The notes under the pieces are model-generated. The model saw only the letters and a list, made by a program, of their open reading frames with translations, did not search any database and had not been told where the DNA came from. The position numbers and the translations under genes are program-made. From contig NC_135553.1 of the NCBI RefSeq assembly GCF_964340395.1, forward strand, positions 501,001-565,000: 64,000 bases of DNA. The letters are read 5' to 3'. Origin of the DNA: Glandiceps talaboti. Taxonomy: Eukaryota > Hemichordata > Enteropneusta > Spengelidae. Positions 185-62,285 of the stretch are shown here, in pieces. Each line of letters opens with the position of its first letter. Position 1 is the stretch's first letter.

Positions 185-3100
185 CTTAGCTGAGATTTTA
201 GATTTGGTCCTCCTCTTTGTTGGCTTCTCATCTTCTGATCCACTTTCCTCTTCACTGTCACTCTCTTCTGACTGTAAGAATCACGACATTTCAAAATTAT
301 AAAAACTCACTCCAGTGACAATGTACTTTCTTCTGATCATAAGAATTAACAATTTTTTCATTTACAAAACTCATGCCAGTGACATTGACATACACTAAAC
401 ACTAGTTTTTACTCGTCACACTATTGAAGAATACACATACAGCCACAAAATAAATACACACAATCACAAAATAAGATAAAGAGAGGCAAGTTATGTTTCT
501 GAAACTATGTGACTAGGAACTGACAAATAACACAAGCAGAGCTAACCAGCAGCCAGTCCAAACTCAGAGGGTTTATAGTTTCCATTTCATATATCTCTAT
601 TCTGAACTGTTAAAAACACTGAAGGTATGTAGCACTCCCTAAATGAGTGAATCAGATTGGTGGTAATAATTGACATTCTACTGTCAAATACACTGATTCA
701 TTACATGGGCTTCCTTTTCAAGACAGCTACATGTACATACATTTTGTCTTGTATGTAAATCTATGACATTTCCAAAATGGTGTCAGCTGGTACAGATATA
801 AAACAAGTTTTCTAAATGGTCAATAAGTTACAGGACAATGGCATATTTTGGCCATGTGAGGGCGTACTACATATATGTGAAAACCTTCAGTGTTTTCAAG
901 GGTTGAGCATGGAGATTAGCTCTTGTTCATTCAACAGACTTACAAGCCGGTACACAATAAGACAATCAAAATATGTGATGAATACATTGAATGAACAGCG
1001 GACTAATGTCTGTTGACTGAATATCTGGATGGTGTTACCTCAGATTCTTCTTCAGACTCACTAACACTTTCTTGTTCACTTTCATCATCTTCGTCTTCCT
1101 CTTCTTCTTCTTCCTCTTCTGACTCTGCAAGTTATAATTAAAATTGTCCATCAATATGTCACTTCCACAGACAAGTCATTTAGCAATCAAACAAACTGAT
1201 TAGATTCCACTGATTTCCATAGGGGAGAAAGAGGGAATCAGTCTAAACAAAATTTGTCGGAAATTTGTAATGAAACAATTTCAAACAATTTATAGGTTAT
1301 ATAGGTTAATAATTTGCATAAATTAGCATATACCGGTATTATGCATATTGTCATAAGTATAGTATATAGTATAATTTATTTTATTTGACTACAAATAATA
1401 CGTACAAAGATACACTAACATCAACATACAGAAAAATAAACAAAACATTAAAATACACCTAAATATTAAGTAAAGCATATTGTCTAAATTACTGTCAGTA
1501 TATGCCTGTACAGCCAATTTACAATCCTAACATGAGCACACATGTACACACAAAGGGATGTGGGATTATGTGTTGCTAGTATATAATACACAGTGAGGGA
1601 GAAATGTGACATTGTTTATAACCCTGATTGAGTTGTGTTCATCAATGAAAACATACATTTCCAATAAGTTCCCTATTCCATCTTTTGGTTATTGAGATGT
1701 CAATTAAATACACACCCAATTTTTGCAACTCACCTTCACTCATGATATCTCCAAGACCAACGTCATCATCTTGTAGGAAATCCTGAGAGCCAATCAAGTG
1801 TGGTAATGGTCTGTGTGCATACAAATCCTGTTGGTACACACAAAATAAAAAGCTACAAATTATGACAAATGTTTACCAAACAACGTGACCATTATCAAAT
1901 ACACATAATTATAGATACCTATAACTGATATACCAGTATTACTAATCTTTACCAACCGGATATGGATTTTGCAGACTGACATTGTACAGTATTTGGGCCA
2001 ACCTTGGGAGGGCCTGTAAGCCATACTACTGCGGTCCACAAAACCCATATCTGGTCCATAAAAGATTTATCATATACCATATCAAGCATTAAAATACGAC
2101 ACATTACAAAACATTATTTTGCTTATTTTTGGGCAAAATAATGGTTCAACAATTCACACAACTGACCTTATATGCAATACAGGAAATTATCATGAGGGGA
2201 ACATCGCCTTTGCCAGCAAAGTGCAATTCTTGCACTTTCTTATCAATCCTTATCAGCTCATTACCGTAACTAAGTGTTTGCTTTTTTGACATTGTCCCTC
2301 ACTGAATTACAATGGAGGCAATACGGTGGATATGAAACTGGGTAATAAATGATAAATGTCAGTATGTCTTCTGCTACATATAAGGGAATAGACTTATAAT
2401 CCTTGTCATTACATGATGCCTTCATTTACATGACTGTAAAATGAAGGATTGCTTCTTGCACTAATATAGGAACATTGGCATCACAATGTTTTACCTTGAG
2501 TTCTGTGGTAAAATGCTTTCTACTGGCTATATTGACACCATAGTGTCTTACCCCGAGGTTCTAAGCTAGGATAATTTCTATTGGCTACAATCAAGCTTTA
2601 CCTAGAGTACTATGATAGGATTATTTCTATTGGCTACACTCATGTCTCACCTTGGATACTATGATAGGATCATTTCTATAGGCTATATTAATGTCTTACC
2701 TTGGGTACTATGATAGGATAATTTCTATTGGCTACATTAATATCTTACCTTGGGTTCTATGATAGGATCATTTCTATAGGCTACATTAATGTCTTACCTT
2801 GGGTTCTAAGATAGGATCATTTCTATAGGCTACATTGGTCTCATCTTCATCCTCAGAGTCAGAGATAGCATCTTTGATATCCAATTTATCAAAGGCATTG
2901 TCCAAAACAGACAGGCCATAACCTATTGCTTCTGTTACTTTAGGAATTAAATCGGACTCCTTTTCTTCTCTGCTTTTATCCTGTATTTGGGGAAAATATG
3001 TGATATTTATCAGTCAGAATGGATTGTTTATTTCACAAATATCATACAGCAATGTCACAAATTATCATACTGGTATCTATCTCAACCTCAAGCAGAGTTC

Positions 3101-6100
3101 AAAAAAAAAATCACTATATATGTACAGTATGTAAGAACCTACTTACAAAACATAAACGATGTAATGTTCATTGGACCCCAGCAATCATGGTTAAATATAC
3201 ACAAATCAGTGTTCACTGAACCCCAGTCTATTCACGACCAAACATGTATAATGTTCACTAATGCTAATAATTTTGTATTCACTTCTTTGATATTGAAAAG
3301 TTTTGTCCCAGATTTTACCTCTTCTTTCTTGTCTTTGTCTTCTTTCATTTCCTGTTTGCTATCTGCCTCTTCAGGAGAATCATCATAAACTCTCTAAGGA
3401 AAACAAAACAAAATTACACAGAATTACAGTATTATCAACAACAAAAGAATGATTTTCAGATTTATAGTTTGGTTAGCACTATGTGTACATGTGTAGTGGT
3501 ACAGACAGATCTTGTAGCAACTGGTGTATCTTCAGCTATATTAACATGTATCGACTGTGAATGAAAACGCAGAATCCACACATGTAATGAAATATCACAT
3601 CTCTAAATTTCATCGCTACCAATAATAGGAACAAGCAGGCAAACTTACATTTTCGATGAACTGCGTGTTGGAAAGCATAAGGAAGTCATTGAAAACATTG
3701 TGTAATCTTCCATCAGTGCTTTTAGTGCTATGAACAAGGCCTTCCACTTGCTTCTCTATTTCATGGGTACGAGAGATCATCTTCTGGGAAAACTCTTGCA
3801 TGTACAGCAATAACTGTAAAAAAATCAAAACAATGGTTCCAATAGAAATACTTTAAATAAAGGCACTCTGTACCATCTGTCTATTTCCTACATTCATTTA
3901 AGAGAAGTATAAACTCTATTTGAACTTTAATAATTGATAACAGATACAAGACTACTACCTACATTCTAGTAACTACAGTACTGGTATGGCATTGCATGTA
4001 CCGGTATCTATCAATTGAGGAGGATAGTAAATGGAGAGTTAGTCCTTTTACTATCTGCCATTTAGACCAATTAAAGTCTTGTCTGTGCTATCCATTGATC
4101 AATATGACTATGAGTGACAGCATCAAGTGGTATAAAGCATTTAATGGATCCATGGGTATTGTAACTTACATTCATAATTTCAATCTTAATCTTACACTTA
4201 GTGTGTGGATAAATCAGTAATCTTACACTTAGTGTGTGGATAAATCAGTAATCTTACACTTAGTGTGTGGATAAATCAGTAATCTTACACTTAATGTGAG
4301 CATATACATGTAGTCATACTTACCCCTGAATCAGATGCCAGAGACCAGTTTGTACTTCCCTTACGCAATTCACTGATTGTCCAAGGTCGTTCCCAGGATT
4401 TACCTTCACCTGATCCCTCTGCAACAGGTCCATTAGAAAGGCCTGTTGCTCCCTTATCATTCATAGGTCCATTTACCTTGTATAAAAACATTAAAATGAC
4501 GATAATGACAACAGCGAATATCAACCACATCAAGTCATACATGGCTGTGCAGTGAATATCAACCACATCAAGTCATATGGCTGTACAGTGAAATAGTATA
4601 CTCATACTTTTAGTAGCCAAAATTCAATAGAAGATGAAGCACAGTTTTTGTTTTATTGTAGTCTATACATGGACCTTAGGAAATCATTACTAGACAAAAT
4701 AACAACTTTAATTAACACCAAAATCAAATAAATATACATGATAAATTTCCACATTCAATGACAAATTTCCCATCATACCACAAACTTTTTACATGTAACT
4801 TCCAATCACAGCAAACACATAATCAGACATGACAACTACTATTTATTTATTTAATGTTGTATACTTTGTGCCTTATAAACCAGAGGACTGGGTGTGGCTC
4901 TTACATTGTAAACTGTACTACGAACTATATTTATAATTTGATAAGTCCACATAGGACACTTTAAATAAACAAATTAGATAACATAACAGCAGCAGGGTGA
5001 GATACGATAAAATGTTTTGAGTCTTATCCCTCCAGTGTAACTCAATATAACCACATTGCTATCATTGTAAAGATAAAAGATTGTATACATATATACACTT
5101 TAACATTCGATCAATTTGTCTTTGTCTCCATTGTTGTAAATTTGGGGTTTTTAGTCAGTCCTTTTTTTTTAGTCTTTTTGTGTTTTTAATATTATTGTAA
5201 TCATCTGTACGTTGCTGCTTTGCACAGTTACAGTACTCACTAAACAGATTCATAAGGTTGGAAGTTCACACTAATATAGTATCATTCTTTGATACACAAC
5301 AGAAGGTGGCGATCACTCGAAACAAAAACAAACGACACAAAACTATGGAAATAGAGGTAAATAAAGCATTTAGCCACTTTCACCACATTGGTTTTTAATC
5401 AGATTGGGGTACAAAACAGATTCCAATTTTTAAAAGCAAAATTGTTGGATAGGCACTAAAATCGTTCAGAACCCCACCCACCCCAAAACTAAAAGTATTA
5501 ACTTTTTTATCCTAACTATTGATCTCACCCCTTTACTTGGCAGAATACGAAGGAAAGGAACTTTGTGCAAACATGGGTATAGGATCATACAATAGTTTTA
5601 ATCATAGCTCTGCCAGGCAGATTATTATCACATCTCTCAATAATACCCTGTACATGAGTTGGCCATATTAAATACCATTGGGCCTGTAATTCATTCTATA
5701 TCAGTAATCTCTGCAAAATCATGTAAGACTAAGGGGTGGAATGGCAAACACAATATTACAATGTCCAGGAAACATGTGTTTTGTACATGTATTTATGTCT
5801 ACATATATTCAATATGGTAAGTTTCATAACAGAAACATTTTTCATTTTTCAAAATAATTAATTTCAAGACAAATTACTATTTACAATGCCAATATCAATA
5901 TAATCATTAATAGTTTCCAGTAAAATTAAAATATTTTGTTAAATAATGCTGTTATGAATTGTCTTCAAAAAGTCATCCGAGTCAACAATCTACCAAATGA
6001 CATTGCATTGCGTTCACATAACATATTACATCAACTCCAATATTTAGAACACTGGAGTTGGTGGGTGTGTATTTTCATTTTGACATGATGAGGTCACAGG

Positions 6101-8817: not shown

Positions 8818-8868
<51 letters not shown>

Positions 8869-12773: not shown

Positions 12774-15700
12774 ATACAAACATACCTTGACAGTACTGTA
12801 TGGACACCTTCAGCTTTACATTGTATGGCATTGACTTATTAAATCTCACACTGACAAAGACTCACTAAACACTTCTTCATAAAAAAAATTATATCCCATT
12901 TGCTGGAAATATATCCCAAGACAAATTGAATATTCCCACTGACATGATCCCTTTGTGTCTCTGATCACTCAACCTGGAAACCACACAATATGGAATATAC
13001 ATAGTGTCTAATATCAATTCTCTTCTCCAATATGGAATAGTGTCTATTATCTATTCTCTTCTCCATGTACATGGATATACCTACCCTAGACACGTAATCG
13101 CCTTCCACTTTCTCTTTTAACATATCAGCTGGTTTGTTTTCATATGCTTTATATGTTTCTAAGTAACGACCTGCTTCTTCAGCACTAGAAAAAAATATAA
13201 TATAAAAAAAAAACAATGACAATAGAGCATGGATGTAATGAAGTGTTCTATGATATGGACATGAATATAATGAAGCATTCTGATATGGATATGAATGTAA
13301 TGAAGTGCCCTATGATATGGACATGAATATAATGAAGCATTCTGATATGGATATGAATGTAATGAAGTGCTCTATGATATGGATATGAATGTAATGAAGC
13401 ATTCTGATATGGACATGAATGTAATGAAGTGCTCTATGATTTGGATATGAATGTAATGTAGTGCCCTATGATATGGACATGAATGTAATGAAGTGCTCTA
13501 TGATTTGGATGTGAATGTAATGAAGTGTTCTATGATATGGATATGAATATAATGAAGCATTCTGATATGGACATGAATGTAATGAAGTGCTCTATGATTT
13601 GGATATGAATGTAATGAAGTGCTCTATGATATGGACATGAATGTAATGAAGTGCTCTATGATATGGACATGAATGTAATGAAGTGCCCTATGTTACAGAC
13701 ATGAATGTAATGAAGTGCTCTATGATATGGACATGAATGTAATGAAGTGCCCTGTGATATGGACATGAATGTAATGAAGTGCCCTATGATATGGACATGA
13801 ATGTAATGAAGTGCCCTATGATATGGACATGAATGTAATGAAGTGCCCTATGATATGGACATGAATGTAATGAAGTGCCCTATGATATGGACATGAATGT
13901 AATGAAGTGCTCTATGATATGGACATAAATGTAATGAAGTGCCCTATGATATGGACATGAATGTAATGAAGTGCCCTATGATATGGACATGAATGTAATG
14001 AAGTGCCCTATGTTACAGACATGAATGTAATGAAGTGCTCTATGATATGGACATGAATGTAATGAAGTGCTCTTTTGGTGAGTTGATAGTATATACAATG
14101 ACTTACCTCCATGCTAAAATCAATGTACAATCAGCTCGGATAGCAATCTTGGTTAAATCCTTGACAGCGTGATGTGGATCTTTCTACACAGAAACATATG
14201 AACCAAAGACAATATCAGACACTATCTAGTGTACCAGGTAGTATTAGCTATGAAACATATGACTGATTTACCATATCTCATCATCAATTCTTTCATCATT
14301 CTAATTCATTTTAGTTTGTGTTTGTAAAACCAGATTAATTAATACAAGCTACACTTACCACATCAACTAATACAAGCTAAACTTACCACATCAACTAATA
14401 CAAGCTAAACTTACCACATCAACTAATACAAGCTAAACTTACCACATCAACTAATACAAGCTAAACTTACCACATCAACTAATACAAACTACACTTACCA
14501 CATCAACTAATACAAGCTAAACTTACATCGACTAGTACAATCTACACTTACCACGTAAACTAGTACAAGCTACACTTACCACATCAACTAATACAAGCTA
14601 AACTTACCACATCAACTAATACAAGCTACACTTACCACATCAACTAATACAAGCTAAACTTACCACATAAACTAATACAAGCTACACTTACAACATCAAC
14701 TAGTACAAGCTACACTTACCACATCAACTAATACAAGCTACTTACCACATCAACTAATACAAGCAACACTTACCACATCAACTAGTACAATCAACACTTA
14801 CCACATCAACTAGTACACGCAACACTTACCACATCAACTAATACAAGCAACACTTACCACATCAACTAATACAAGCAACACTTACCACATCAACTAGTAC
14901 ACGCAACACTTACCACATCAACTAATACAAGCAACACTTACCACATCAACTAGTACACGCAACACTTACCACATCAACTAATACAAGCAACACTTACCAC
15001 ATCAACTAGTACAAGCAACACTTACCACATCAACTAATACAAGCTACACTTACCACATCAACTAATACAAGCTACACTTACCACATCAACTAGTACAAGC
15101 TACACTTACCACATCAACTAGTACAAGCTATACTTACCACATCAACTAGTACAAGCAACACTTACCACATCAACTAATACAAGCAACACTTACCACATCA
15201 ACTAGTACAATCAACACTTACCACATCAACTAGTACACGCAACACTTACCACATCAACTAATACAAGCAACACTTACCACATCAACTAATACAAGCAACA
15301 CTTACCACATCAACTAGTACACGCAACACTTACCACATCAACTAATACAAGCAACACTTACCACATCAACTAGTACAAGCAACACTTACCACATCAACTA
15401 ATACAAGCTACACTTACCACATCAACTAATACAAGCTACACTTACCACATCAACTAGTACAAGCTACACTTACCACATCAACTAGTACAAGCTATACTTA
15501 CCACATCAACTAGTACAAGCAACACTTACCACATCAACTAATACAAGCAACACTTACCACATCAACTAGTACAAGCTACACTTACCACATCAACTAATAC
15601 AAGCAACACTTACCACATCAACTAGTACAAGCTACACTTACCACATCAACTAGTACAAGCTACACTTACCACATCAACTAGTACAAGCTACACTTACCAC

Positions 15701-18584
15701 ATCAACTAGTACAAGCAACACTTACCACATCAACTAGTACAAGTAACACTTACCACATCAACTAGTACAAGCAACACTCTAAGTTCATAACTATACCCAA
15801 GTTGTTTCAGTCTTTCATGAATGTAGTCTGGTTTAAGATGGTGGTATCTGATACTGTCAAAAAAAATGACATTGTATGTTGTTAAAATTGCAAGCTGTTT
15901 CTATGGGTCAACTTAAAGCAAGATGGCCCATTATTTGGTAACAGTGTTACAGTAAAAATTAAAGTCAGTCCATAGTTATGAGACTGACTGAGTCTACATC
16001 AGACCAACATTTTCACAAAGTAATTGGTCCTTAAATTTAAAGAACTAAATCATAATAATGTATTATAATGATTTTGTAAAGGGCAGTAAGTATATATGCA
16101 TAAGGTGGTCACACTTTATAATTACATGTATATCTGCTTGACTTACCTCAAAAACAAAGCACATGTTGTTTTGCCCATAACATAATCAGGAACGACATCT
16201 CCATACTCCCAAGGTACATTTCGTATATGTTTTATAATTGGGTTGCCTTTCTGAAAGACATTGACAATAAATCTCATATCATTCAGACTTATTGATAGAC
16301 ACTGTCAACACATACATGTATTTGAAATGTGGCACATACCTTTCTATCTGGTAAAGTCTTCTAAAATGGCAACATAATGTATAATCATTGATTGAATTCA
16401 ATTGTACCAATGTTTTAATCAAAATAAGTAATATACTTGTATTGTCATTGCAACATACCCTCTATAGAAAAGTGTCATTCCAATCTGTACACTTTGATCA
16501 CCAAGTATGTTTCTTTTCAACCGTCTACATAAATCCCATGCTGTTCCCAGCAATTCAAGGGTTTTGTTTTCTGATGAGTTTCTATTATCTTTCTTTCAAT
16601 CATTGAACATTTCAACACAAACAGAACACTTCACTGTTTTTGAAGGTGAATTATCCTTTGACTATCAAATACTTTAGGCTTATACTCAAATACTTTGCCA
16701 GATCAGCGGCATAAGCAATAACAGCAGTGTGTGATGTTACACCTGTGAGTTTCTACTCACCTGCCTTGGGTGTACAATTATACTATTGGTTGATTTACCA
16801 CCTGCTACACTAGCCACTGATGTTTCAGATCCTTGGGGTCCTTCAAAATGTTTAGAGTCTTTTAAATCAGAAAATGCTTCGGCAAATGAAACTCCCTTTC
16901 TCCTTTCTAACATTGGATTTTGAATCTCAGCAGTGTGTGTTTCACTAGCATTAGTACTGTAACATTGGGTTTTGTCAGAGTTTGTTGTTTCACTAGCATT
17001 AGTACTCTGACATGGGGTTTTGTCAGAGTTTGTTGTTTCACTAGCATTAGTACTCTGACATGGGGTTTTGTCAGAGTTTGTTGTTTCACTAGCATTAGTA
17101 CTGTAACATTGGGTTTTGTCAGAGTTTGTTGTTTCTCCTCCAACCAAACGTCTTAGACTTGAAGCTTTCTGATGTATTGTTTTATCACTAGCTGTATTAG
17201 CTATAATCTGACCTGACCTTGCACCCACTGTCAATGTATCACTAGATGTTTTCTGATTGTGTGTATCAGGTATACGAAGTGTGTTGGTACTTTTAGTAAA
17301 CTGTTTACTGACACTACTCTTAAATTGACATTTGACATGCAATGCTGTGATCCTATCTGTGGTATCATAGTTCTCTCTAGTCACATGGTCAGTTTTCTGT
17401 TGTTCAATAGTCACATTTTGTTTCAGATCAGTACTGCTTGGTTTGCTGGTATTGAATAAAGGTTTCACCTGTCATACAAACAAATATAAAAAGATGTATT
17501 CATTAACATTGCATAATGTGGTAAAATAATGGACTTACAAGCCAATGAATGTGGAAACTGACCATGGAAAAGTAACAATTACACATTGATACTGTAACTG
17601 GTGTCTTTTCCAAGGCTTTCTAGTCAATTGGACCCCTAGTCAATTGGACCCTAGTCAATTGGACCCCTACCCAAATGAACCCTTGCCGTAACCAATGTAA
17701 GTTGTTCAGGGATATTCGACACAATCCAGAAACATTACTATTAAGAAATAGATAGCACAAATATGAGTGTAGTCTGTTTGCAGTTTGGGTGTGGGAAAGG
17801 TATCCACCGTAAAATTAATAACAAGAGTAAAGCGTAGAACGGGAGCTGTCTTGCGCTGGAGTCTTGCGAACCATGCATCCATGTGGGTTAAACGAACTAC
17901 AGATTCACGATGTGCAGTAAATGAGACCAAACTTTTATCAACGAAGCAATGAAATTCACCAGTTGCAATTGATAAATTTCCTTGCCTCAGGCATAGTCCC
18001 TACACTCGACGAGGGTTCATTTGCTTAGGGGTCCAATTGACTCGGGTCCAATTGGTTAGGGGTCCAATTGACTAGGGTCCAATTGACGAGGGGTCCAATT
18101 GACCTGTTTCCTTTTCCAAGGTTTGGGAACCACGAAAGTGATTGGTTTGGTTGGGAGTCCAGATCAAGATCATTTAGAGAACTTGGGCAGTTTTGGTCTG
18201 TTTTTTACGAACACATGAACACTGGAAGAGAAGCCATAATTGTAATTTGTAACCCTTAATGTCTGTGATTTAACCATAGACCCCTCCACTGTCTATGATT
18301 TAACAAACATGTCGGTATCACTACATTGTATGATAACAGTAAAACAAGCAAATGTCGCCAACGTGGAAGTCCACAGTTTTTTGCGTAGGTTGCAAGACTC
18401 AAGTACTTCTTTCATCCTCAAACTTCAAGATCCCGCAATATATGCATCCCCACTTCAGACTTGTACAATCTTTCTATACCCTCATTACATTCAGTATACA
18501 AATCAGACTTGCCTGTGGACGTTCACTACTCAACTTTTCTACATCATTGGCGCTGGGTATCACAAACTTTTTCCTATTCGCCAT
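11661..18584 (-). CDS. ERCC1: DNA excision repair protein ERCC1, 9 exons, complete
   Basis: ERCC1 is the non-catalytic partner of the XPF nuclease in nucleotide excision and crosslink repair. Exons: 18513-18584, 16761-17468, 16147-16250, 15754-15853, 14107-14183, 13085-13184, 12656-12727, 12262-12330 and 11661-11762; 467 residues against 297 in human. Exon 1 reads [11 protein letters not shown], matching human ARKKFVIP, and is followed by VKPLF and [12 protein letters not shown]-contact residues are kept: Asn in KGNPIIK and both Tyr in RYHHLKPDY. The HhH2 region ([19 protein letters not shown]) and the XPF-binding Phe in VFQEPFLR are present. The extra length is a Ser/Thr-rich N-terminal insert with a four-copy 16-residue repeat, plus a longer basic tail after EPFL. 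Exon 1 ends in a GC donor (CAG then GCAAGT). An in-frame ATG 33 bp upstream (18615-18617) could add 11 residues. Confidence 0.94.
12507..12533. repeat. (AC)n microsatellite, ERCC1 intron
   Basis: Short CA tract in the intron between exons 7 and 8, flanked by ATGT-type repeats. Confidence 0.9.
12731..12775. repeat. (AAAT)n microsatellite beside an ERCC1 acceptor
   Basis: About 11 AAAT units begin directly next to the exon 7 splice acceptor (CAG at 12728-12730), so on the transcript strand they form an ATTT tract that serves as its pyrimidine tract. Confidence 0.9.
13220..14076. repeat. Minisatellite, about 32 bp unit, ERCC1 intron 5
   Basis: About 26 tandem copies of atggacatgaatgtaatgaa plus gtgccctatgat, with variants. 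The 3' half is very uniform and the 5' half more diverged. It lies wholly in the intron between exons 5 and 6. Confidence 0.93.
14345..15777 (-). repeat. 28 bp minisatellite that carries the ERCC1 exon 4 splice donor, about 50 copies
   Basis: Unit on the transcript strand: CTAGTTGATGTG then GTAAGTGTTGC, that is the last codons of exon 4 (VDV) with the 5' splice site. The array starts inside the exon (15754-15777) and runs about 1.4 kb into the intron, with GTAAGT kept in nearly all units. It shows higher-order structure: 14761-14940 recurs almost identically at 15181-15360, exactly 420 bp (15 units) away. Confidence 0.93.
16941..17133 (-). repeat. In-frame 48 bp coding repeat in ERCC1 exon 2, 4 copies
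   Basis: Four copies of [16 protein letters not shown]. The outer two carry QCY and the inner two PCQ. The unit is 48 bp, so the frame is kept; all copies are nearly identical, which indicates recent expansion. Confidence 0.9.
17616..18110. mobile_element. Foldback-type transposon in ERCC1 intron 1
   Basis: The ends are inverted repeats built from tandem sub-repeats of GTCAATTGGACCCCTA: about three on the left (17621-17670) and five on the right (18020-18103). An 11 bp direct repeat, CTTTTCCAAGG, flanks it at 17605-17615 and 18111-18121 and is a candidate target-site duplication. No transposase-like frame lies inside, so it is non-autonomous. Superfamily not assigned. Confidence 0.75.
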
Positions 18585-22550: not shown

Positions 22551-25210
22551 TCATGATAACCGGGGGAAACTGTCAACTTCTCCAACTTCTGTCACTGTCT
22601 GTTCATTCAGGCTGTATGATAACTTATACTTCAATCTTACTTTTTCCTGAAAGAAAATACAATAATTGAATATTAACAGAATGTGATTATAAAGACACAG
22701 CAATCCTTGTTTTGAACTACTATCACTATGGCAATGTTCTAGGGGTTATGAGTCTATGAGAATGTCATTTGGAGAGATTTCATAGAACAGGCAACAATTA
22801 GCCATACTCCTATTGACCAAGGAACCATCCTGTTTGTCAAATGAATTATCTATCATCAACAATTAAGATTTCTGTCACTTGACTTGAAAAATACCTTATT
22901 TGGATTGGATAACAGCATGACTTGAAACATACCTTATTTGGATTGGCTAACAGCATGACTTGAAAAATAACTTATTTGGATTGGATAACAGCATGACTTG
23001 AAACATACCTTATTTGGATTGGCTAACAGCATGACTTGAAGCATACCTTATTTGGATTGGCTAACAGCATGACTTGAAACATACCTTATTTGGATTGGCT
23101 AACAGCATGATTTGAAACATACCTTATTTGGATTGGCTAACAGCATGACTTGAAACATACCTTATTTGGATTGGCTAACAGCATGACTTGAAACATACCT
23201 TATTTGGATTGGCTAACAGCATGACTTGAAACATACCTTTGGATTGGCTAACAGCATGACTTGAAACATACCTTATTTGGATTGGCTAACAGCATGACTT
23301 GAAACATACCTTATTTGGATTGGCTAACAGCATGATTTGTGTTATTGCTGCTGGTGGCAGAATTGGGTTAAAGGCTGGCAATTCAGATGCTGATGGAGGT
23401 TGTAGTTTCACTTTCATCACCTATAATATAAAGTAACATTTCAAATCAATTATTGTACTTGGCAATTTCACATTATACAATTCATAAATGGACACTTACA
23501 GCTGTATACATAGTCTTTAGAATGACTTAGTAAATGTATTTCATAAATGGACACTTACAGCTGTATACATAGTCTTTAGAATGACTTAGTAAATGTATTT
23601 CATAAATGGAAACTTACAGCTGTATAGTCTTTAGAATGACTTAGTAAATGTATTTCACAAATGGAAACTTACAGCTGTATAGTCTTTAGAATGACTTAGT
23701 AAATGCATTTCATAAATGGAAACTTACAGCTGTATACATAGTCTTTAGAATGACTTAGTAAATGTATTTCATAAATCGAAACTTACAGCTGTATACATAG
23801 TCTTTAGAATGACTTAAAGTAAATGTATTTCATAAATGGAAACTTACAGCTGTATACATAGTCTTTAGAATGAATTTAGTAAATGTATTTCATAAATGGA
23901 AAATTACAGCTTTATACATAGTCTTTAAAATGACTTAGTAAATGTACTTCTATCATATTTGACCAACTAACTTATTGCTTTCATTACCCTTTCAATTCTA
24001 ATTATCAAAACCCTTTTATTGTCTGATTCCAAGTCACAAACACGTTTGTAAGGGCACTTGATTACTCACAAGACTGTCCCAGAAAGGACATGAAGTAGTA
24101 AACATACTTATGACATGAACTGAAAACGATACATATACATTTTTGTCAAGTTTTAGATTATTTATTATTAATTACTGGTAATCTTTAAAACTAATTTCCC
24201 CTTCTATTTTTCCTTTCTTATTTTCAACACATGTTCAAAGTCTCCTACAAAAAAAAAATCAGAGGGGTTGTAAACAGTGAATGAGAGTGAATCTGAGACC
24301 GTATTTGAGACTCTCAACGGGCTCAAAAACTGTAAATGCGACTTATTCTGAGACCATCCAGCTACTACGGTAGTACCGTATGACTTTATCATTCACATCT
24401 AACTGTATAACGATCACAGTGGGTGACTGCTGAATTTTCGCCATGATGAATATCTACGCAACAATATGAAGTAGACAAACTTACATAATGTTTATGATAT
24501 GTACTAGCAGCAACGACATGCTCCATTGATCTGCAGTGCCATTGGCAGCTTGGAAGACTACATTTTTAACATGACAGACTTACTTCAGGAACTGCAGCTT
24601 GGAAGACTACATTTTTAACATGACAGACTTACTCTAGGTACTGCAGCTTGGAAGATTACATTTTTAACATGACAGACTTACTTCAGGAACTGCAGCTTGG
24701 AAGATTACATTTTTAACATGACAGACTTACTTTAGGAACTGCAGCTTGGAAGATTACATTTTTAACATGACAGACTTACTTTAGGAACTGCAGCTTGGAA
24801 GATTACATTTTTAACTGGTGATGGATTAGAACTCATAGTGGATACAACAACTACCAAAACATCAGGTCTGGGTGAATCCTTCGCAAAGTGGAAAACTGTC
24901 CTAACATTATTCTTGTCATATGTTGTGATAGGGGCATGGCCACCTGCAAAAGTCATGTTATCACAATTATAAAATATCTGTGTACAAACATATCTAAATC
25001 TACTAAAACCATTTGTGAAATATTGAGTTTATAAATGTTATTGTAATACAAATATGACAGACCCTAGCTGGGTCAAAAGGCATTGCTGAAGGTTTTTATA
25101 ACAAGATTGAACTCGCCCTGTAGTGTGTGTCTGTGTGTATGTACCCTGTATCATGTATGTGTGTATTGTGTGTGTGTGCATTGTGTATTGTGTCTGTCTG
25201 TCTGTCTGTC

Positions 25211-28200: not shown

Positions 28201-31200
28201 GTCTAATACATGATAATATAGTAAGGGTTGTCAGTATCTGAGCAGTTAATACTAATAAAGCTGTCTTGGGCCTTTTACGACAGCAGTCTGGGTTTGAACC
28301 TGGCTAGTGTTGGCAGGCTTTGATTGAAAATTAACCAGATCTGTATGTAAGAATGATGCAGTGAGGGCAATGCTCAGTTTGACACTACAAAACACAGGTA
28401 TTCCTCAAGTAATTTAGTTTCCTCATGCTTTAACACTAGGGCTCTGTACAAGTGGTAATCATATTTCAATGTCTGACTTTGATATGGATTAGTCGTGCTG
28501 AACAAATTAATAATAACTAGTGATGAATAAATTAATAATAACTAGTGATGAATAAATTAATAATATCTAGTGATGTGAATGAATTTTAGGAGGAAAGAAC
28601 AAAATATTGGTTTGTAGGAAAAACTTTCTGCTGACTCCCATGAGGCAATGTGGCCTACAGCAAACATACCGTGTAGATCAACTTGATACTTCTCTGAAAT
28701 AGCAAGTAATTGCAGGTGATGTAAAATCATGGAATGACTGAGAGTCTGTCTCCAGAACCCATAGTTAAGAAATTTCCTAGAGTGGCATTCCCCTTAAAGA
28801 CTGAACAAATTAGTACAAAATCAGGTGTGAGCCTGAAATATCTTTATTTTCACAATGAACATTTTCTATTCACTGTATTTTTTTTCACCAACTCAAGTCC
28901 TACAAGAGTTGACATATTGTGACTTACTAAGTTCATCATCCTTGTCGTCAACATCACTAGCTAGTGTAAATAATTTGGGTCCTACAAGAGTTGACATATT
29001 GTGACTTACTAAGTTCATCATCCTTGTCGTCAACATCACTAGCTAGTGTAAATAATTTGGGTCCTACAAGAGTTGACATATTGTGACTTACTAAGTTCAT
29101 CATCCTTGTCGTCAACATCACTAGTTAGTGTAAATAATTTGGGTCCTACAAGAGTTGACATATTGTGACTTACTAAGTTCATCATCCTTGTCGTCAACAT
29201 CACTAGCTAGTGTAAATAATTTGGGTCCTATAAGAGTTGACATATTGTGACTTACTAAGTTCATCATCCTTGTCGTCAACATCACTAGCTAGTGTAAATA
29301 ATTTGGGTCCTATAAGAGTTGACATATTGTGACTTACTAAGTTCATCATCCTTGTCGTCAACATCACTAGCTAGTGTAAATAATTTGGGTCTCATCCTTT
29401 CACAAGCTTCATACAATTCCTAAAATATGACACAATGGAAACATCATGAATTATTCATTGTGAAACATATATAAAACAAATGCCAGCTCTGTAAGTACCA
29501 GTGATTCAAATTATATGTGATTTGCATGGGAAGTGATTGTTAGTGGTTTTCAGAAGGCTGTGGGAAGTGATTGTTAGTGGTGATCAGAAGACTGAAGGAA
29601 ATATGGTATTGGAAAAAAACTTACCTTTTTAGGTCTTTTTTTATCATTAGGTACTTTGTATATTTTACCTTTGTGTACTTATACCTTTTTATTATTGTTT
29701 TTCTGATATGTGGACATTTTAAAGGTTTTTCAAATGGTGTATTCATTGTCTGTTTATTCCTGTCAGTTGTACAGAGTGTTGTGATTATTTTAATGAAATA
29801 TGCTTTACAAGAAATAAAGATTAAGAATAAGATTGAATAGTCTAGATCTAGATCTACCCCTGGTACCAAATCATCTCTTCACCCTGTCTACTAGCTCAAT
29901 GAGAAATCATGAACCAAATGTTGTTCATGCAAATGAGTAAACCTCCAACTCTTAGAATGATGTAAACAATGTATAAGTAGCATTCTGATCTGACAAATAT
30001 ACCATATTTGGACATTAAGTAACTGCCTCCAATAAACAGTAATTATTTGGACATGATGTTAATGAGTGTGTGGGTTGATACAGTTGATTTGAAATTTCAT
30101 CTCAGGACCTCATCCGCCTAGATGTAAAGAGAGATCTTGAGATTTGATACCACAGATAGCACTAGTCTGACTAGTTACTGAAATGAAATGAATTAAAGTG
30201 TGACTGTTATCAGAGATTACAATATTATTACATCAAAATAATGCTACAAATATTGCACTACAATTTAATATTAAACATAAAGGATAGATATGTTGAGTGA
30301 CAGTAGATACAAACATGATAGCAACATGTTATTTCAGATGAACACATTACGAAAACAGGAGAATTCACATGACACATTAACAACACAACAGATCTCTTGA
30401 ACCGAACATACAATATTACATAACATAACATAATTCACAACACAACTTGATTAAGCAGCAATAAACACAACATAATAATTAATTAACTACTCTAGGTTGG
30501 CACATTACATAACAAATTGACATGTCACTTGGCACAAAGAACATGACAATCTACATGACAAAATGCAGCAATTTGACAATTCAGTTAAAATGTACAGAAA
30601 CAAATGGATTCATCTTATAAAAATATGACAATTCATTTAAACGTAGTAAAAACACATTTCACATGGTATAACTATAATATGATAATTCCATTCATTATAA
30701 CTTCATAGAAACAAAACAATTCACATGATACAACATATTATGATCTTCCATGTAACATACATGAACATTCATTTAAACTTGAGAGAAGCATAAATTCAAA
30801 TCGTATAACACAGTATGACAATCCATATCACACAGTATGACAATCCATATCACACAGTATGACAATCCATATCACACATCAAGTCATGACAATTTACAGT
30901 CTGGTGATATCCTGTATCTCAGACCACTAAATAGATTTAGTGGTCTGAGCCTGTATCGAATCTCAAGATATCTCTTTGGGATCAGAGATGATTCAATACC
31001 ATGTTAGCACCAAGACAATTCAGATTCGATGTCATGTTAGCACCAAGACAATTCAGATTCGATGCCATGTTAGCACCAAGACAATTCAGATTCGATGCCA
31101 TGTTAGCACCAAGACAATTCAGATTCGATGCCATGTTAGTACCAAGACAATTCAGATTCAATACCATGTTAGCACCAAGACAATTCAGATTCGATGCCAT

Positions 31201-46543: not shown

Positions 46544-46772
46544 CAATCTGATTAAAATCTGATGTTAGATAGGCTGGTTTTCCTGTATTTACCTTTATTC
46601 CATCGTTATTGCGTCTTTTACGTTAGTTTTTTTTTTTCTGGGCGAACGCCTTTCCAACGTTGGAAAGGCGTTCGCCCAGAAAAAAAAAACTAACGTAAAA
46701 GACGCAATAACGATGGAATAAAGGTAAATACAGGAAAACCAGCCTATCTAACATCAGATTTTAATCAGATTG
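46544..46772. mobile_element. Near-perfect 229 bp palindromic transposon, family B, copy 1
   Basis: The two arms (about 114 bp each) are perfect complements apart from one base in a T/A run (11 against 10), meeting at AACGTT with no loop. The ends are CAATCTGATTAAAATC and its complement. A perfect 10 bp target duplication, TGGTCCAGTG, flanks it at 46534-46543 and 46773-46782. Lack of arm divergence means a very recent insertion. Duplications of 9-11 bp are typical of Mutator-like elements, so that superfamily is a reasonable guess. Confidence 0.9.
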
Positions 46773-50680: not shown

Positions 50681-50837
50681 TAAATTTGACAACACTACCA
50701 GCTAACACTATTTCTATAGGCTTTATGCACAATACTCTGTGATTTTTACAGGTGACCACATGTATCATAGTAGGCAGTAGATTAGGGCAGTGGTATCCAT
50801 AGAAATAAAGATTATGGTCACACAGTACATGTGAATT

Positions 50838-54050: not shown

Positions 54051-54328
54051 AACTATAGCCTAGCATTCATGCTGTCCTTTTTGACACGGCTAGTTGCAAT
54101 GCTAGCAAGAACCCCATGGTGTCCTATATTTACTGGTTAATATATTTGTTTTTTTCACAAATCTAAACAATCCTTCATTTATAGCCAATTAAAATCTGTG
54201 CACGAATTCTTTGCACAATGAAACCCTCTCCCTTGCCCATACTGTAAAACAGGACAGCATTGCTTCCAGGGTGACTTTTCCCTTTCTGCTGGGGTTGGTA
54301 TTTGAGTCGTCATACAATCTGATTGGAT

Positions 54329-57300
54329 TTAGGTAATTACAGGTTCTTCTTCATCCAAACTATCATCACTAGTCAGACCGACATGGTTAGTGGTTTCTGG
54401 TGGTAAGAGTGTTGACTCTGCTAATTGATTGAGAGCTTTCAATACAGTGTCTGGCATATGATCCAGTACCATTCTGGCACTCACGACAATAGAACTGAGG
54501 GTGTCATGGCCAGCCCAGCTTGCATGATATACAACCTCACCACAACAGGTTCTGAAATGATAAAAAATAATTAGTATCTAATCAGATTATGGCTCTTATT
54601 CCTAGATCATCACCACTAAGTAAGGGTGCCTAGATCTTCACCACTACACCATCACCACTAAATTAAGGTGCCTAGTTCTTCACCACTAGTTTACTGTGAA
54701 AAGTTCATCATCATTAATTTGAGGAAGCAATCAGTTTTTGTAGTCTGTCATAAATATTTGGGTTAGAGTACATGTAACACAACAGTCACACATTATATAC
54801 GTTTCAAGTGTTACCTAGGTGATTCTTCTGTTATGTGTATAACCTGGCCAGGTGGAAAGAGAGCTGTTCTGTTACTGACACTGTCTGGTTGTGATTGGTC
54901 ATCAGTGTAACTCCTTGGTCTGTTTCTATTGGTTGAAGCTCTTTCATCTAACAATGGCTGACTGATATTTGGTCCACTCTCAACGTCATCAGTTGGGGCT
55001 GGTAATTTCTCTGGAAATCCACAAGCTGTATACCAACACCCACCAAGTAAAATTTGGTACTGGAAAACAAAATGAATTCGTGATATTTTTTGTTGCAAGG
55101 GATTGGCATCAACAATAACATGCTTCATAATAATGAAATGCAATACTCATGGTGATAACTTTATTGATAGAAATGTTCAAGTCAAGAAATAAAGTGAGTT
55201 TGGCTTTTGTGTCTCAATCATTCAAATGTTTTCATTTACAACCCTTGGCAGTCCGTAATTAAGCCATATACAGTACTCAATTGTAAGTGTGGCTGGCATT
55301 GTCATATATGCACAAAGGATGTTTTACAATTAGTGTTTAATAGTCCCATAAACATGCGATACACTGATGCAGGAATACAAGAAATCAGATATGCAAATGA
55401 AGCACATACTGACCATTTTCACATTTACATTGAATGTCTCCTTTTTTAAAGAGACAAGTGTCGCACAAATACTAAAAACTACATTTTCCATGACCATGAA
55501 ACTACACGGAGAGTGTACATTGCCTTCCAGTCAACATATCACCAAAGTTTTCACTAGTACGAATGTGTCAGACATACCTTGGGTTGAGTGTTATTTCTTA
55601 AAACACGATGTACTTTCTGTTTCAAATCATCCAGAGACTGTAAACTTAGTCTGCAATGGTAACAAATGAAATATGAAGGTAATTGCTAACAAGATTGAAA
55701 TATTGTGTTCTAATCTACAGTTTACATTCTTTACAGACAATGCTAAGGTGTGAACCTAGATGAAAATTTAAAGTTTGTTTTTGTAAAAAATTATAGTACT
55801 GACATTACCCTCTATTCTGTACCCTTTTCACCACAGGCACATAATGTAACTTTTCTAACTGCCATGTTGTCAGACTAAACATCTGATTTGATCTACCTTG
55901 GTATGACGTCTTTGTCAAGTATTTTGAATGACCTACCTTGGTAAGACGTCTTTGCCAAGTACTTTGAATGACCTACCTTGGTAAGACGTCTTTGCCAAGT
56001 ACTTTGAATGACCTACCTTGGTAAGACGTCTTTGCCAAGTACTTTGAATGACCTACCTTGGTATGACATCTTTGCCAAGTACAACAGATGTAATAAAATC
56101 CTTACTATACAAACATCCCTCAGCACTGCAAAAAATTACAGTTTGAAAATTATCAATAATAATCAAAATATTTTATTTATAGAGCAATGTAATTTTCTTG
56201 TAAAAATGTTAGACTTGACTGGCAACATTCAGTATCTTGTAGGTTTATGTGATTTGATGGGCGATTATGACAGCAATGTCCAGATTGTAAGCCAATCATC
56301 AAGCCTCCATTTGATAGGGGATTAAGACAGCAATGTCCAGATTGTAAGCCTCCATTTGCAGTGAGCAAATTACAGAATAAAAATGTGACTTTGTGCAATA
56401 TTTCTAATATATATGTCAAACTTACTTTAGAAGTCCCCCTGGTGGTGAGTAAGCATAGCAATAGAGACCAGGCCAAGTGTTATGTAGTAATATGGATAAT
56501 AAAGCAGCTGCACCAGCTCCTAAGCTGTGACCTACTATCACCACTTTGTAATCCTGTAATAATCAATGAGAATAAGCAATGATTAGACACTGCCCAAGAC
56601 AAGAGTCAGTGAAATAATCAGAAGTATCACAACCAATGATTAGACACTGCCCAAGACAAGAGTTTTTAAAATGATCAGAAGTATCATAAGCAATGATTAG
56701 ACACTGCCAAGACAAGAGTCAGTGAAATGATCAGAAGTTGCATAGAGATCCCGTATATCAGCATTGTCTTACCGGTGCTTCACGGAATGCCCTCTCCAAC
56801 ACATGTTCATTCTCTAAGATATTTCTAATATATTTAGCAGCTTGTAAGATGCCTTTATGGGCCTTGATTTCCTCTCCACTGTCAACCTCCACTGGTGAAC
56901 ACTCAGCTGTCATGTCTGTCAAGGCATCCTGTATGATAAAGCAATGGAATTGTGTTGAGAGAATGCATTGGTTGTATGACATATGATAGTCTACGAATGG
57001 TAATGCAGTAAACTAAACATTAGATACATACCCTGAGAGATAGACTTCCTCTTATTGATATTACTACGGCTAGCTGAGAATGGTCTATGGCGACAAAGAA
57101 TGGAATTTCATAAACCTATAAGACAAATAAAAGGAAAGGTATATCAACTGAGATGAAACTGTATCACATATGATAAGAATAAGTACAATGTATTACTTAT
57201 GTTGAATTGATAACAAACTCTTTTCAGTATATCATGTACACAAGTAAAGTTTACAGTGTCATGACAATGCCTCCTAATGTCTACATAAGGCAGGATTATG

Positions 57301-60300
57301 GAGGGTGGGGAGGGGGGTGTTAATGACAGCATAAATCTGAACTTATTCTGAACCAATCCTGCAATTTTCCAGACTTGAGACACCCATAGGTGTACAGTTG
57401 TATAGACACCCATAGGTGTACAGTTGTATATAATATCAATCAGACACCCATAGGTGGTGTACAGTTGTATATAATATTAATCAGCTCCCAAATATTTTCT
57501 CACAATAGAACTAAGAGACCAGTAATGCCATCTGTAGTTGTTGGTTAGAGACCAGGAAGGAAAAAATCTTGGCCCTACTAGTGGCTGTTTCTGATATCAT
57601 TTGTGCATAAAATAAAGTAGAAAGTATGCCTTTTCACTTTATCGAAAGGGTACTCATGAATTACAAGTTTGGCATCACATTCTTGTTACTACTCTGGCAA
57701 TCAAGGTCTCGGTTTAATACTTTACTGACACAAACTGAAACTATTGTTGTGACATGTTGGACATTGGTTTAATTGTACTCACAGTAGGGTGGCATTTCTG
57801 ATGACATCCGTTATCTTGCAGTGTGCATTTTTGGGGACATCCAATGTTTACACAGGATGATCTGATTCAAATAACAGAGGCATCCCTATAATCTACCACA
57901 TCAAATATCAACAGTTTTAGTTTGTGTCTATCTTAGTACCTAAAACTGAGACCTTGATTGCCAGAGTAATGATTGAGTTTACAAACATTTCTGATAGGCC
58001 TTACTTTATTATGAAAACTGCAATAGATAATATCGCTTTGTCTCAGTCCTGTAGCATTCTTCAACGCTGCAGTATTACACTCACAACAATTATCTTCATT
58101 AGAAGTACTGATGGTACAACAGGTACATCTGATAAGATAAAGAAACCAACAAATGTTACAGTAATACATGTAATGGACATGTTGATAATGTGTATTGACA
58201 TGCTGATATAGTTTATAGACATGGTGATATTACATAGGAACATGCTGATATTGTACATTAACATGTTAATATTGTGTTAATGTTTATAGTATTGACTGCT
58301 TTCCCTCTAAAACTTCGCAATCTCATTTCTTATTTGCATGAGGATTTGTTTTTACACAGCTATAACATTGTAAGCACATTTAATAGTACAACTGAAGCAG
58401 ATTCAATGGTGTGAGTGCTAACATTGCCAACTTATTGACAAGAAAGCAAGTTTATTGACTATGAAATTATTGTCCATGATGGTTTGGTTGAATTGTCACC
58501 CACAGGAAAGAAATGTCAGAGTTGTCATAGCTTTAATAAATTAACATATGTCTTTTTTTTCATATCAACTCACAATAAAGTGAATTGTTTTGGAATTTGA
58601 TTCCAGGGATAACTGAAGTTCAGAAATGTAATATTGCAATATATCCTAGAAAAAACCACCTTAAGGTATGAAACTAGTTGGAAATTCGACAATTTTTTAG
58701 TGTATCAAATAACCACAGATATTGTAAACCATATAATGCTATAACATGTGTTACATGCTGATGTAATCCTAATCTTTTCAATCACATGTCCATCACTAAT
58801 CACAGCATCAGCTGTGCAACTACACTAACAAAGTGACTAGATTATCTAGGCATGCAATCTCCGTGTTGATTAAAAATGTCTGGTGCAAAAAAAAAAAAGA
58901 AAGATGAAATATGACAATGTATGGTATAAAAGTACTCACAAATGAAATCCATACATGCCAATATGATTGCAATGGAATAGAAGGAAGACATTGGAATACA
59001 TTAATATACAACATTAGTGCAAGCTGTGGCAAGGGGTCAATTTTAAGACAACCTTTGAATGTTATCATTAAATTTGACCCCTTGCCACAGCATTAGTGCA
59101 AGCTGTGGCAAGGGGTCAATTTTAAGACAACCTTTGAATGTTATCATTAAAATTGACCCCTTGCCACAGCATTTAATAATGCAAGCTGTGACAAGGGGTC
59201 AATTTTAAGACAACCTTTGAATGTTATCATTAAAATAACTGTTATTTAATATCACACAGGATTATCCACTACAAGTAGGACAAACACCTAGTTAGCTTAG
59301 AATTGAAATATATATTAATGGCACACACATTCTGAGCATTAAATTATTAATTAAAATTAATGAAGTATATTAAATGATGTGTTGAAACTGAATACTAAAT
59401 ATAATTATATGATGCACTGTGATGATGAATAATAAATTTGTTATGTTGATGGTAGTAAAATTTTATACGCATTAAAAGCCATACAATGTAAATGTTTAGT
59501 ACAGAGACTCTGAGAGGGTAATTATAGGATTCATTAACATGACAAGGCCATCATACATCAATAATGATACAATGGTCAGGTCATATCGTAACTCATAAAA
59601 TTCTTTTGTGTACAGACCATTAGTACAGTTGTTATCTATACAAATACCTATAGCACTGGATGTGCATAGCAATAGTAGTACATGGTAGTAGTATTGTCTC
59701 CATTCAAATGATGAATACCATATGTGTATGTATAATAGTAATACAGTATCCATACAAAGGTCTTGTATATATGATACAAGGGGATTTCACTTACATATAT
59801 TTCAAACACATTTTTTTCATAATAGGAAGTTCATTTCCTCTGGATCAAGCTATTATTCTAGTAAAGTCAATAGGAAGTAATCATTTATCCAGCCATTAAT
59901 CAATCAGCCTTCCAATCAGTCCACCCAACCATTCATCCACCCACCCACCAATCCACAAACCCACCCACCAACCAATCAGTCCATCCATCCATCCATCAAG
60001 TCATCAATCCATCTATCCGTCTGTCCATCCATCCACCCACCCATCAATCCATCAAAAAAGACCCCATATAGGTAAATGGTTTGTATTACATACCTACATT
60101 CTACACACAATTGGCACAGACCACACATTGGATTAGCATACACAAACAATGGCCAACCATAGGCAGCTGAGGCATACTTCATGTAATAGGCTACATTGTG
60201 AATATCGGCATAAGGTGAACCTGGTGGGCGTGGAAGACGAGGCTGTTCGGTGATTGCTGGTACTAGTACTGGGGCGTTACCACAACGTTCCTGAGCTTCT

Positions 60301-62285
60301 TGTTCTAGTTGTATTAACGCCAAACCTGCCGCAACGTCTGAAGGCACAACATCTGTATCCTGAAACAACATCAAATCAAACCATGTATGACTTGATGTCC
60401 TGGGTTATGTCAAACAATATCGATATTTTGATTTCTTTCATACAATTGTCCTAGAACTAGAAAAGACAAATCAAGACAAGATTCTTGTTCAAATTCAGTG
60501 AAAGTGGCTGTACATAAAAGGATTCATTAACACTTTACCTTGAAAAAACCAGACAAGAGTTCAGCTACGTCACTAAATGCTGAGTGTGAATTCTCATCAA
60601 AGGCTGCACAACAACACAATAATTTACACCTGGTGAAGAAAAATAATATACAGATTATGTTAATCACCTTGACAACACAATAATTTACACCTGGCAAAGA
60701 AAAATAATACACAGATTACATTAATCACCTTGACAACACAATAATTTACACCTGGTGAAGAAAAATAATACACAGATTACATTAATCACCTTGACAACAC
60801 AATAATTTACACCTGGTGAAGAAAAATAATACACAGATTACATTAATCACCTTGACAACATAATAATTTACACCTGGTGAAGACACTAACTAGCCAATAT
60901 GATGCAGCACTGATACACAACAACTTAGTGTTCCTCCATCCCTAACTATGTACATGTATTGACTCACAAAAACAGTTTTATCATTTTGAGAAAGAAATAT
61001 GTTACCTTTCATTAGAAATCCCACTGTATATCATCTACATGACATGGACCATTGTATACTGTCTATATGACATGGGGATACCTACCACTGTCATACTATT
61101 TGTAGTGTTTTCAAACACATTTCATAACAACTACTAGTTTCAATGCTTTTGAATATTAAAGTGCTAACTGTTATATTTTACAAATTACACATCTTATACC
61201 CAACATATAATTTCAGTAAATGTCACATAATGAATACCTCTAGTAACTATGGTAACATGACTCTTTAACATACTGGATTACTATAGTAACTGGTTCATTC
61301 AACACATTAATGTACCACATGGTAACTCATATCAAAAACATGCATGTATGGTTACTGTGGTAACTGTTACATTCTGATGCCATATATATGGTTACTATGG
61401 TAACAAGCATATTTGATGCATAGTTACTGATGTGACACATTCAACACATAGTTGCCATGGTAAACTGTGATACTGAACACATCTGGATTTCGTGTGATAA
61501 CCAAATCATGGGGGTATTGACAGCCTTAAACTTATATTCAAAAAATTCTACATATTCAGGAAAATTAATTTCTTTAATATTACAACTGCAACACTATTGA
61601 GTATGTGAACTTTATCATATCACAACTGTACCTTCCATGGGCTTAGTAACTAAAGATAAATAACAGCAGCAATAATTCTGGTCGACAGTAATACAGTACA
61701 TTATACAAGGACAAAACTTAGCAGGGTATAATACAATACATGTACCTACTAATGAGTTATAAAGATGATATGCGAAAGTAATAAGCTTACCTATTTTCCC
61801 ACAGTCTGTGAGCTGCTAAGTGGGCACTTTGTCTTAACTGCTCAGTTTCACTGCTTTGTAGTTGATTACTCTTGTTAATGGTGACTGTTAACTTTCCCAG
61901 TGGATCAAAGACCAAGGCAATTCCAATAAGGACAGAGAGTAGGATAATCCAGCTAGAGATGACAGCTCCTTCTACGGTCCTCACAACATCAGCATCACAC
62001 TGATTCACCTTATGGAAAACCCAACGTGTTCCCAATATTGACCATAAAAACTCACCAATAAAAAATAATAGTCTGATGTAGAGCAAAACTGGCAGGTGCC
62101 TCCTTGGGTATGTGTTTAATATAGTTCCTTGCATACTACAATAAGTTATGCCTAGTTCTAAAATGATGACAATGGCTAAAATAGCTAGTAAACCAACAAG
62201 GTATGACAGTAGTAGGTCTCCTCCCTCATCACAAGCTAACAAATCCACTCTATGTACTTGGTATACAACTGATATGGCAATAATC
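54329..62285 (-). CDS. DAGLB: sn1-specific diacylglycerol lipase, beta-like, 11 exons, 5' end missing
   Basis: DAGL hydrolyses diacylglycerol to 2-arachidonoylglycerol at membranes. Exons: 61791-62285, 60539-60629, 60094-60359, 58005-58128, 57032-57115, 56773-56928, 56426-56553, 56057-56125, 55578-55650, 54815-55059 and 54329-54551; about 650 residues, phases consistent. The largest exon encodes the membrane segments ([58 protein letters not shown]). Then come Cys-rich [39 protein letters not shown] and the lipase core: nucleophile elbow [16 protein letters not shown] and the acid in [10 protein letters not shown]. Late His residues in QVIHITEE and LDHMPD are candidates for the triad base. 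The short tail (ends EEEPVIT) fits the beta form (672 residues in human), not the long alpha form. About 35-40 N-terminal residues lie beyond the window or in an unseen exon. Two exons have tandem-copied splice sites. Confidence 0.93.
55891..56083 (-). repeat. 40 bp minisatellite that carries a DAGLB splice donor, 5 copies
   Basis: Each unit holds the last 27 bp of the exon with the catalytic acid (codons LGKDVIPR) plus the donor. Donors sit exactly 40 bp apart (true site ends at 56056; copies at 56016, 55976, 55936 and 55896). Four read GTAGGT and the most distant GTAGAT. Confidence 0.93.
56570..56735. repeat. Tandem repeat, about 57 bp unit, 3 copies, DAGLB intron
   Basis: Units with aatgattagacactgcc and caagacaagagtcagtgaaa. 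Intronic only, starting about 15 bp upstream of an acceptor. Confidence 0.85.
57375..57482. repeat. Tandem repeat, 3 copies, DAGLB intron
   Basis: Three units of gacacccataggtgtacagt plus tgtataatat, of uneven length. Confidence 0.8.
59023..59236. mobile_element. Tandem trio of a 69 bp hairpin element, DAGLB intron
   Basis: Units 59023-59091 and 59102-59170 each have complementary arms (GCTGTGGCAAGGGGTCAATT and its complement) around the same short middle. A third at 59184-59236 has only the left arm. Units are nearly identical. It looks like a tiny inverted-repeat element that was copied in tandem after insertion. Confidence 0.7.
59900..60055. repeat. CCAT/CCAC-rich simple repeat beside a DAGLB donor
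   Basis: Irregular (CCATCCATCAAT)-type repeat ending about 35 bp from the exon donor at 60093. Confidence 0.85.
60611..60888 (-). repeat. 61 bp minisatellite that carries a DAGLB splice acceptor, 5 copies
   Basis: Each unit holds a full 3' splice site, TTATTTTTCTTCACCAG, followed by the first 19 bp of the exon (GTGTAAATTATTGTGTTGT). Copies of cacctgg/cctgg lie at 60627, 60689, 60749, 60810 and 60871. Only the most 3' copy joins the true exon (60629). One copy reads TTTGCCAG. Confidence 0.92.
61240..61465. promoter_or_regulatory. Cluster of RFX/X-box-like palindromes, DAGLB intron
   Basis: Palindromes GTAACTATGGTAAC (61243-61256), GTTACTGTGGTAAC (61351-61364), GTTACTATGGTAAC (61391-61404) and GTTGCCATGGTAAA (61451-61464), plus a weaker one near 61278. 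They approach the X-box GTNRCC-N(0-3)-RGYAAC; the last fits best. Function is inferred. Confidence 0.4.

Follow-up and report, generated by a model that had tools for sequence, protein, structure and literature searches.

Which splice site does a gene use once a minisatellite has copied its exon-intron boundary several times over, and how do such arrays arise? The question is raised by a 64,000-nucleotide stretch of the genome of Glandiceps talaboti, a hemichordate acorn worm (positions 501001-565000 of contig C6, in an assembly of 590 Mb and 47 contigs). We refer to this whole stretch as the window. An original prediction, made from the sequence alone, had placed seven minisatellites over exon-intron boundaries in four genes. 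Tandem Repeats Finder (TRF) recovered 7/7 arrays, and exon mapping assigned them as predicted to four genes, a WASHC2-like gene, ERCC1, GGA and DAGLB (Table 1). We consider it likely that they are tolerated local tandem duplications at exon-intron junctions, in which the exon-proximal site still wins and intron growth is a by-product.

Table 1. Arrays and genes of the window; positions count from its first letter.
Feature	Position	Strand	Description
Donor-spanning array	2544..2836	minus	WASHC2-like exon 2798-2980; 49 bp x ~6; decayed copies down to ~2491
Donor-spanning array	14329..15778	minus	ERCC1 exon 15754-15853; 28 bp x 52; 91% of intron 14184-15753
Donor-spanning array	22880..23339	minus	GGA exon 23310-23420; 38 bp x 12
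Donor-spanning array	24545..24815	minus	GGA exon 24780-24943; 49 bp x 5.5
Donor-spanning array	28897..29391	minus	GGA exon 29338-29419; 82 bp x 6
Donor-spanning array	55889..56082	minus	DAGLB exon 56057-56125; 40 bp x 4.8
Acceptor-spanning array	60611..60883	minus	DAGLB exon 60539-60629; 61 bp x 4.5
Intronic array	13228..14073	minus	32 bp x 27; 92% of ERCC1 intron 13185-14106
Wholly coding array	16938..17135	minus	ERCC1; 48 bp (16 codons) x 4
WASHC2-like		minus	Exons placed by hand; name presumed
TSR3		plus	5 exons, spliced model; Pfam-supported
ERCC1		minus	8 exons by exact spliced mapping of own annotated protein; first exons by hand; Pfam-supported
GGA		minus	15 exons by exact spliced mapping of own annotated protein; Pfam-supported
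PHF5A		plus	3 exons, spliced model; Pfam-supported
tRNA-Gly	within the window		One gene
DAGLB		minus	11 exons in window; own annotated protein, 650/682 residues mapped; Pfam supports lipase domain

Minisatellites across coding splice sites

Minisatellites were defined as TRF rows with a period of at least 10 and a score of at least 50, and the array spans and periods are those obtained after overlapping rows were merged. Each of the seven arrays crosses one coding splice site: six cross donors and one crosses an acceptor (60629/60630). The exonic part of each array measures 19-54 bp and the remainder enters one intron in all seven cases, in line with the predicted start in the exon and spread towards the intron only. 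The prediction also had the splice site in every copy, which proved too strong. The site is copied in most extra units, with exceptions that include a GGA copy without GT (22963-23000) and the decayed distal copies of WASHC2. The six donor arrays contain 84 intronic copies; among the 67 of these that could be compared at the same length, 66 have the GT. In the acceptor-spanning array of DAGLB, four upstream acceptors keep the AG. Each unit of the seven arrays also contains sequence of the array's own intron.

The original prediction knew of no named system of this kind, and here it was mistaken. Tandem duplications of exon-intron boundaries have been reported as "mirages" in the alcohol dehydrogenase (Adh3), globin (BflGb6, BflGb9), troponin C and PGBD5 genes of amphioxus (PMC3087553, PMC3902484). 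Amphioxus mirages copy boundaries at 5' or 3' ends, and many but not all copies bear splice signals (PMC3087553). A tandem unit containing an exon-intron boundary is present in 7/7 window arrays and in 8 further arrays in other genes, which are described below, and the Glandiceps arrays appear to be mirage minisatellites. Unit sizes are 10-72 bp in amphioxus Adh3 and ~150-160 bp in the globin genes, compared to 28-82 bp in the Glandiceps window and 31-141 bp elsewhere in the genome. Allele-length and somatic instability have been reported for the amphioxus arrays, whereas Glandiceps is represented by one assembly. What Glandiceps adds to the known mirages is a hemichordate example and, through the sampling of exon ends in several genes, a rate (15/266 exon ends) and a figure for the excess relative to random seeding; donors may also be overrepresented (12:3). 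No report of hemichordate mirages turned up in a literature search to which subscription papers were mostly closed, so that absence from print is not established; under the same limit, the search found no Glandiceps genome paper.

Human genes offer two further parallels. The CBS gene carries a 31-bp variable number tandem repeat, c.1444_1467+7(16_21), with variable copy number (PMC2630376). By its name this repeat has 24 exonic and 7 intronic bases per unit and so spans the donor, as in Glandiceps, but it is a single polymorphic locus. Human segmental duplications contain boundary tandem repeats, with units of minisatellite size, and 27 intron modifications remained after curation (PMC2812944). 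There the exon-intron structure of recent paralogues was altered, whereas the annotated Glandiceps proteins have no such change. The CBS repeat reportedly affects enzyme activity, judging from the title alone of a 2001 report by Lievers.

Recurrence in other genes and the part played by chance

Since the window owes its selection to these arrays, a sample independent of it was required. Elsewhere in the genome, profile searches gave 78 matches to PF00063 (myosin), 85 to PF08393 (dynein) and 89 to PF12774, from which 71/78, 15/85 and 0/89 exons were taken, 86 exons in 97.7 kb. The stretches chosen were exon-dense ones, myosin ones with longer introns, and those with leftover myosin exons. Profile edges served as exon ends in this sample and were inspected by eye only near an array. 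One exon, at locus L025, lies outside the profile matches; its array prompted its inclusion, which inflates the count by one. With this exon, 8/174 independent exon ends are straddled by an array, namely donors at L022, L025, L026, L030, L042 and L044 and acceptors at L034 and L040. All eight are at myosin exons, and the 15 dynein exons have none. Near misses were not counted (L020 1713-2040 and 3239-3425, L019 7854-7922, L029 1055-1092, L043 1-332, L047 87-353), although a loose reading of decayed copies at L019 7854-7922 would cross the donor. Boundary-spanning arrays recur in other genes of this genome, and this much of the proposed genome habit is supported.

The straddling rate did not differ between the window (7/92) and the sample (8/174; P=0.40), giving 15/266 combined. 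The window figure rests on 46 donors and 46 acceptors, the 92 coding splice sites obtained by mapping, where ~98 boundaries in 64 kb had been predicted. Arrays with four or more copies were more frequent in the window (7/92 compared to 2/174, P=0.009). Two arrays of the sample reach that number, L022 with 7.9 copies and L025 with 4 by TRF (~8 by eye); the other six have 2 to 3.

How far these counts exceed chance depends, within the window, on the null model chosen. The window contains 39 minisatellites, of which 7 cross splice sites, 2 are wholly coding and 30 are noncoding; 31 of the 39 are genic. Uniform placement of all 39 gave 9.4 straddling arrays compared to the 7 seen (P=0.89), an expectation that is high because long arrays dropped blindly land on exons; since it lets arrays cover whole exons, this null was not relied on by itself. 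When placement was forbidden to engulf exons, the expectation was 3.5 for all 39 (P=0.055) and 4.0 for the 31 genic arrays (P=0.09). When a single unit was seeded at random for each of the 31 genic arrays, 2.6 straddling arrays were expected (P=0.011). Among genic arrays scoring at least 300, a cut picked after the data were seen, 7/14 straddle a boundary, compared to 2.0 expected under exon-sparing placement (P=0.0005) and 7.0 under naive placement (P=0.61). Eighteen random stretches of the genome (180 kb, 13,715 of it N) contain 51 minisatellites.

Random seeding at the independent loci gave 3.96 expected compared to 8 seen (P=0.036; Poisson 0.049), and for window and sample together 6.53 compared to 15 (P=0.003). 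By batch, the first loci (L019-L031) had 4 compared to 2.69 (P=0.28) and the later ones (L032-L051) 4 compared to 1.27 (P=0.026). Without the L025 exon, 7/172 independent ends are straddled compared to ~3.9 expected (the expectation was not recomputed; Poisson P ~0.10), and 14/264 overall (P=0.007). An approximately twofold excess at exon ends over random seeding is therefore likely but not proven. These figures bear on the possibility that a minisatellite-rich genome and chance suffice, with no enrichment of boundaries. The result of uniform placement, the first independent batch at chance, the loss of significance without the L025 exon, the low copy number of 6/8 independent arrays and the choice of the window for its arrays are all consistent with it. 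The expectation under exon-sparing seeding, however, was exceeded in the later batch, at all independent loci and overall, and we regard density alone as a possible but somewhat doubtful explanation. Read as strong targeting, the proposed habit is not supported: the excess is about twofold, there is none under naive placement, and long arrays are rarer outside the window.

Donors outnumber acceptors by 12:3 (P=0.035), by 11:3 without the L025 exon (P=0.057) and by 6:2 at the independent loci alone (P=0.29). A natural guess is that acceptor arrays are tolerated less well, since the extra acceptors precede the working one and splicing may favour the first site encountered. It is unlikely that exon ends, chiefly 5' splice sites, are preferred birthplaces of minisatellites in this genome, where a donor-linked process of transcription or splicing would seed duplications, the exon copy would re-seed them and introns would lengthen steadily. 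One of the acceptor mirages, at L034 (590-705), has a 48-bp unit comprising a branch-site-like CTAAC, a pyrimidine tract, the AG and the exon start, so that the whole 3' splice region is copied.

No window period is divisible by three (0/7, P=0.059), and a general shortage of such periods had been expected. It did not materialise, as 4/8 periods in the sample are divisible by three (141, 48, 60 and 105). The overall 4/15 (P=0.79 against one third) indicates that the zero in the window is chance. The periods of the two wholly coding window arrays, 15 and 48, are multiples of three, which is what selection on the reading frame alone would produce; 10/30 noncoding arrays have such a period.

Use of the exon-proximal site and origin of the arrays

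The exon-proximal site is the one used by the genes' own annotated proteins in 6/6 testable arrays (ERCC1, GGA and DAGLB; no protein was retrieved for WASHC2). At the arrays, GGA and DAGLB align collinearly with their Ptychodera and Saccoglossus orthologues, with no insertion. Use of another copy would bring an early stop in 7/7 window arrays. In 6/6 donor arrays the reading frame meets a stop within the first extra unit, 1-50 nt after the working donor and before the next one, and a stop would also be added by all four upstream acceptors of the DAGLB acceptor array. Amphioxus mirages are said to cause no aberrant mRNAs and not to interfere with splicing (PMC3087553, PMC3902484). At L030 (3300-3583), a donor mirage with a period of 141, both copies and the intervening intron are open in the frame of the exon, and distal use could therefore lengthen the protein.

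It had been suggested that the extra sites serve as a splice-site backup, the copies being retained since they rescue splicing after loss of the main site. The GT kept by 66/67 compared intronic copies, with 17/84 left out, would suit such a role. The donor motif, however, shows no extra conservation within the unit: variants were found at 6/54 sites in the motif and at 19/232 in the remainder (P=0.59; 67 intronic copies, after exclusion of the 17 that were length-variant, partial or degenerate). Moreover, none of the seven window periods preserves the frame. Together with the early stops and the use of the proximal site, these results do not support a backup role, which we consider highly improbable.

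The tolerance of accidental duplications that we favour would proceed as follows. An accidental local tandem duplication with its ends on either side of an exon-intron junction probably starts the array, which slippage or unequal exchange would then enlarge. Of its copies, the one adjoining the exon body would retain the reading frame and stay the working splice site; the others would come to lie inside the intron as decoy junctions, lengthening it and decaying there. Such arrays would be tolerated because the exon-proximal site wins, presumably through exon definition, and because transcripts from other copies carry an early stop and the mis-spliced RNA may be removed. Mirages would recur because the genes of the Glandiceps genome are rich in minisatellites. 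The suggested lengthening of introns is supported: minisatellites make up 7,247/35,883 bp of all window introns and more than 20% of 14 introns, and in two ERCC1 introns their share reaches 92% and 91%. A genome search of the 590-Mb assembly found no second locus for the 82-bp GGA array.

Substitutions between copies follow an order. In the WASHC2-like array the exon copy encodes ILEPK and the next three copies IIEPK, IIVPK and IIVSK. In DAGLB (55889-56082) the exon copy encodes DVIPR, the three inner intronic copies DVLPR and the outermost of the four DVIP again; DVIPR is common to all three hemichordate DAGLB proteins aligned, and amphioxus and a starfish have DLVPR. With terminal pieces removed by hand, similarity to the exon copy was greater in the exon-near half of the copies than in the distant half in 6/6 window donor arrays and in L022 (L025 yielded no value). 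The order of substitutions argues against an artefact of assembly, as does the presence of the pattern on all six contigs concerned (C4, C5, C6, C12, C17 and C22, each 21-32 Mb). Tandem arrays are prone to misassembly; even so, we consider an artefact extremely improbable.

The arrays might also create introns, if duplicated exon sequence yields new splice sites and the copies turn into intron (intron gain by tandem duplication). At L044 (512-682) a 58-bp unit is nearly all exonic and a donor, GTAAGA, arises where two copies join; judged from the sequence, this is a candidate for a splice site created by the duplication itself. In potato, a duplication crossing an intron-exon boundary produced an intron (PMC4974935), and intron gain was proposed for mirages in the amphioxus globin paper (PMC3087553). 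The seven window arrays, however, have intron sequence inside every unit, so their introns probably predate them. Intron creation thus appears an improbable account of these arrays.

Several observations weigh against the tolerance of accidental duplications as a full account. The twofold excess over random seeding (15 compared to 6.5, or 14 without the L025 exon) is not predicted by pure accident, and accidental duplication does not require the donor bias. Use of the proximal site is shown at the level of annotated protein models. The copy gradient is reversed in the acceptor array (60611-60883), and similarity that fades with distance is possible in any tandem array. Finally, the 28-bp ERCC1 array has five weak matches elsewhere, with 68-70% identity, on C5 (two), C6, C11 and C15.

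If the 15/266 rate holds genome-wide, the genome would amount to a large natural set of experiments in splice choice, in which near-identical sites compete and one is used. Mirages would then extend from lancelets to hemichordates and provide a transposon-free route of intron growth, as well as a test of how exon definition chooses among identical sites.

Genes and other repeats of the window

Best matches of the hand-spliced models were the annotated G. talaboti ERCC1 (100% identity across 55% of the query), a GGA1-like protein (95%) and DAGL-beta (100%). The minus-strand gene with the exon at 2798-2980 is presumably WASHC2; Pfam and PDB searches with its model gave zero matches. The putative first ERCC1 exon (18513-18584) has a GC donor rather than GT (CCACAG|gcaagt). 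The coding array of ERCC1 lies in a long N-terminal exon, and the annotated 258-aa protein begins downstream of it.

Most units of an intronic GGA array (23481-23950, 59 bp x 8) include, in the sense orientation of the gene, a donor-like GTAAGT, with no known exon adjoining. The array is perhaps an old mirage detached from its exon, or the motif may be there by chance. A palindrome at 46544-46772 has two 93-nt arms that are 100% complementary and a central perfect inverted repeat of 31 nt, and is perhaps a foldback element; by eye, a sequence near 63200-63400 resembles it.

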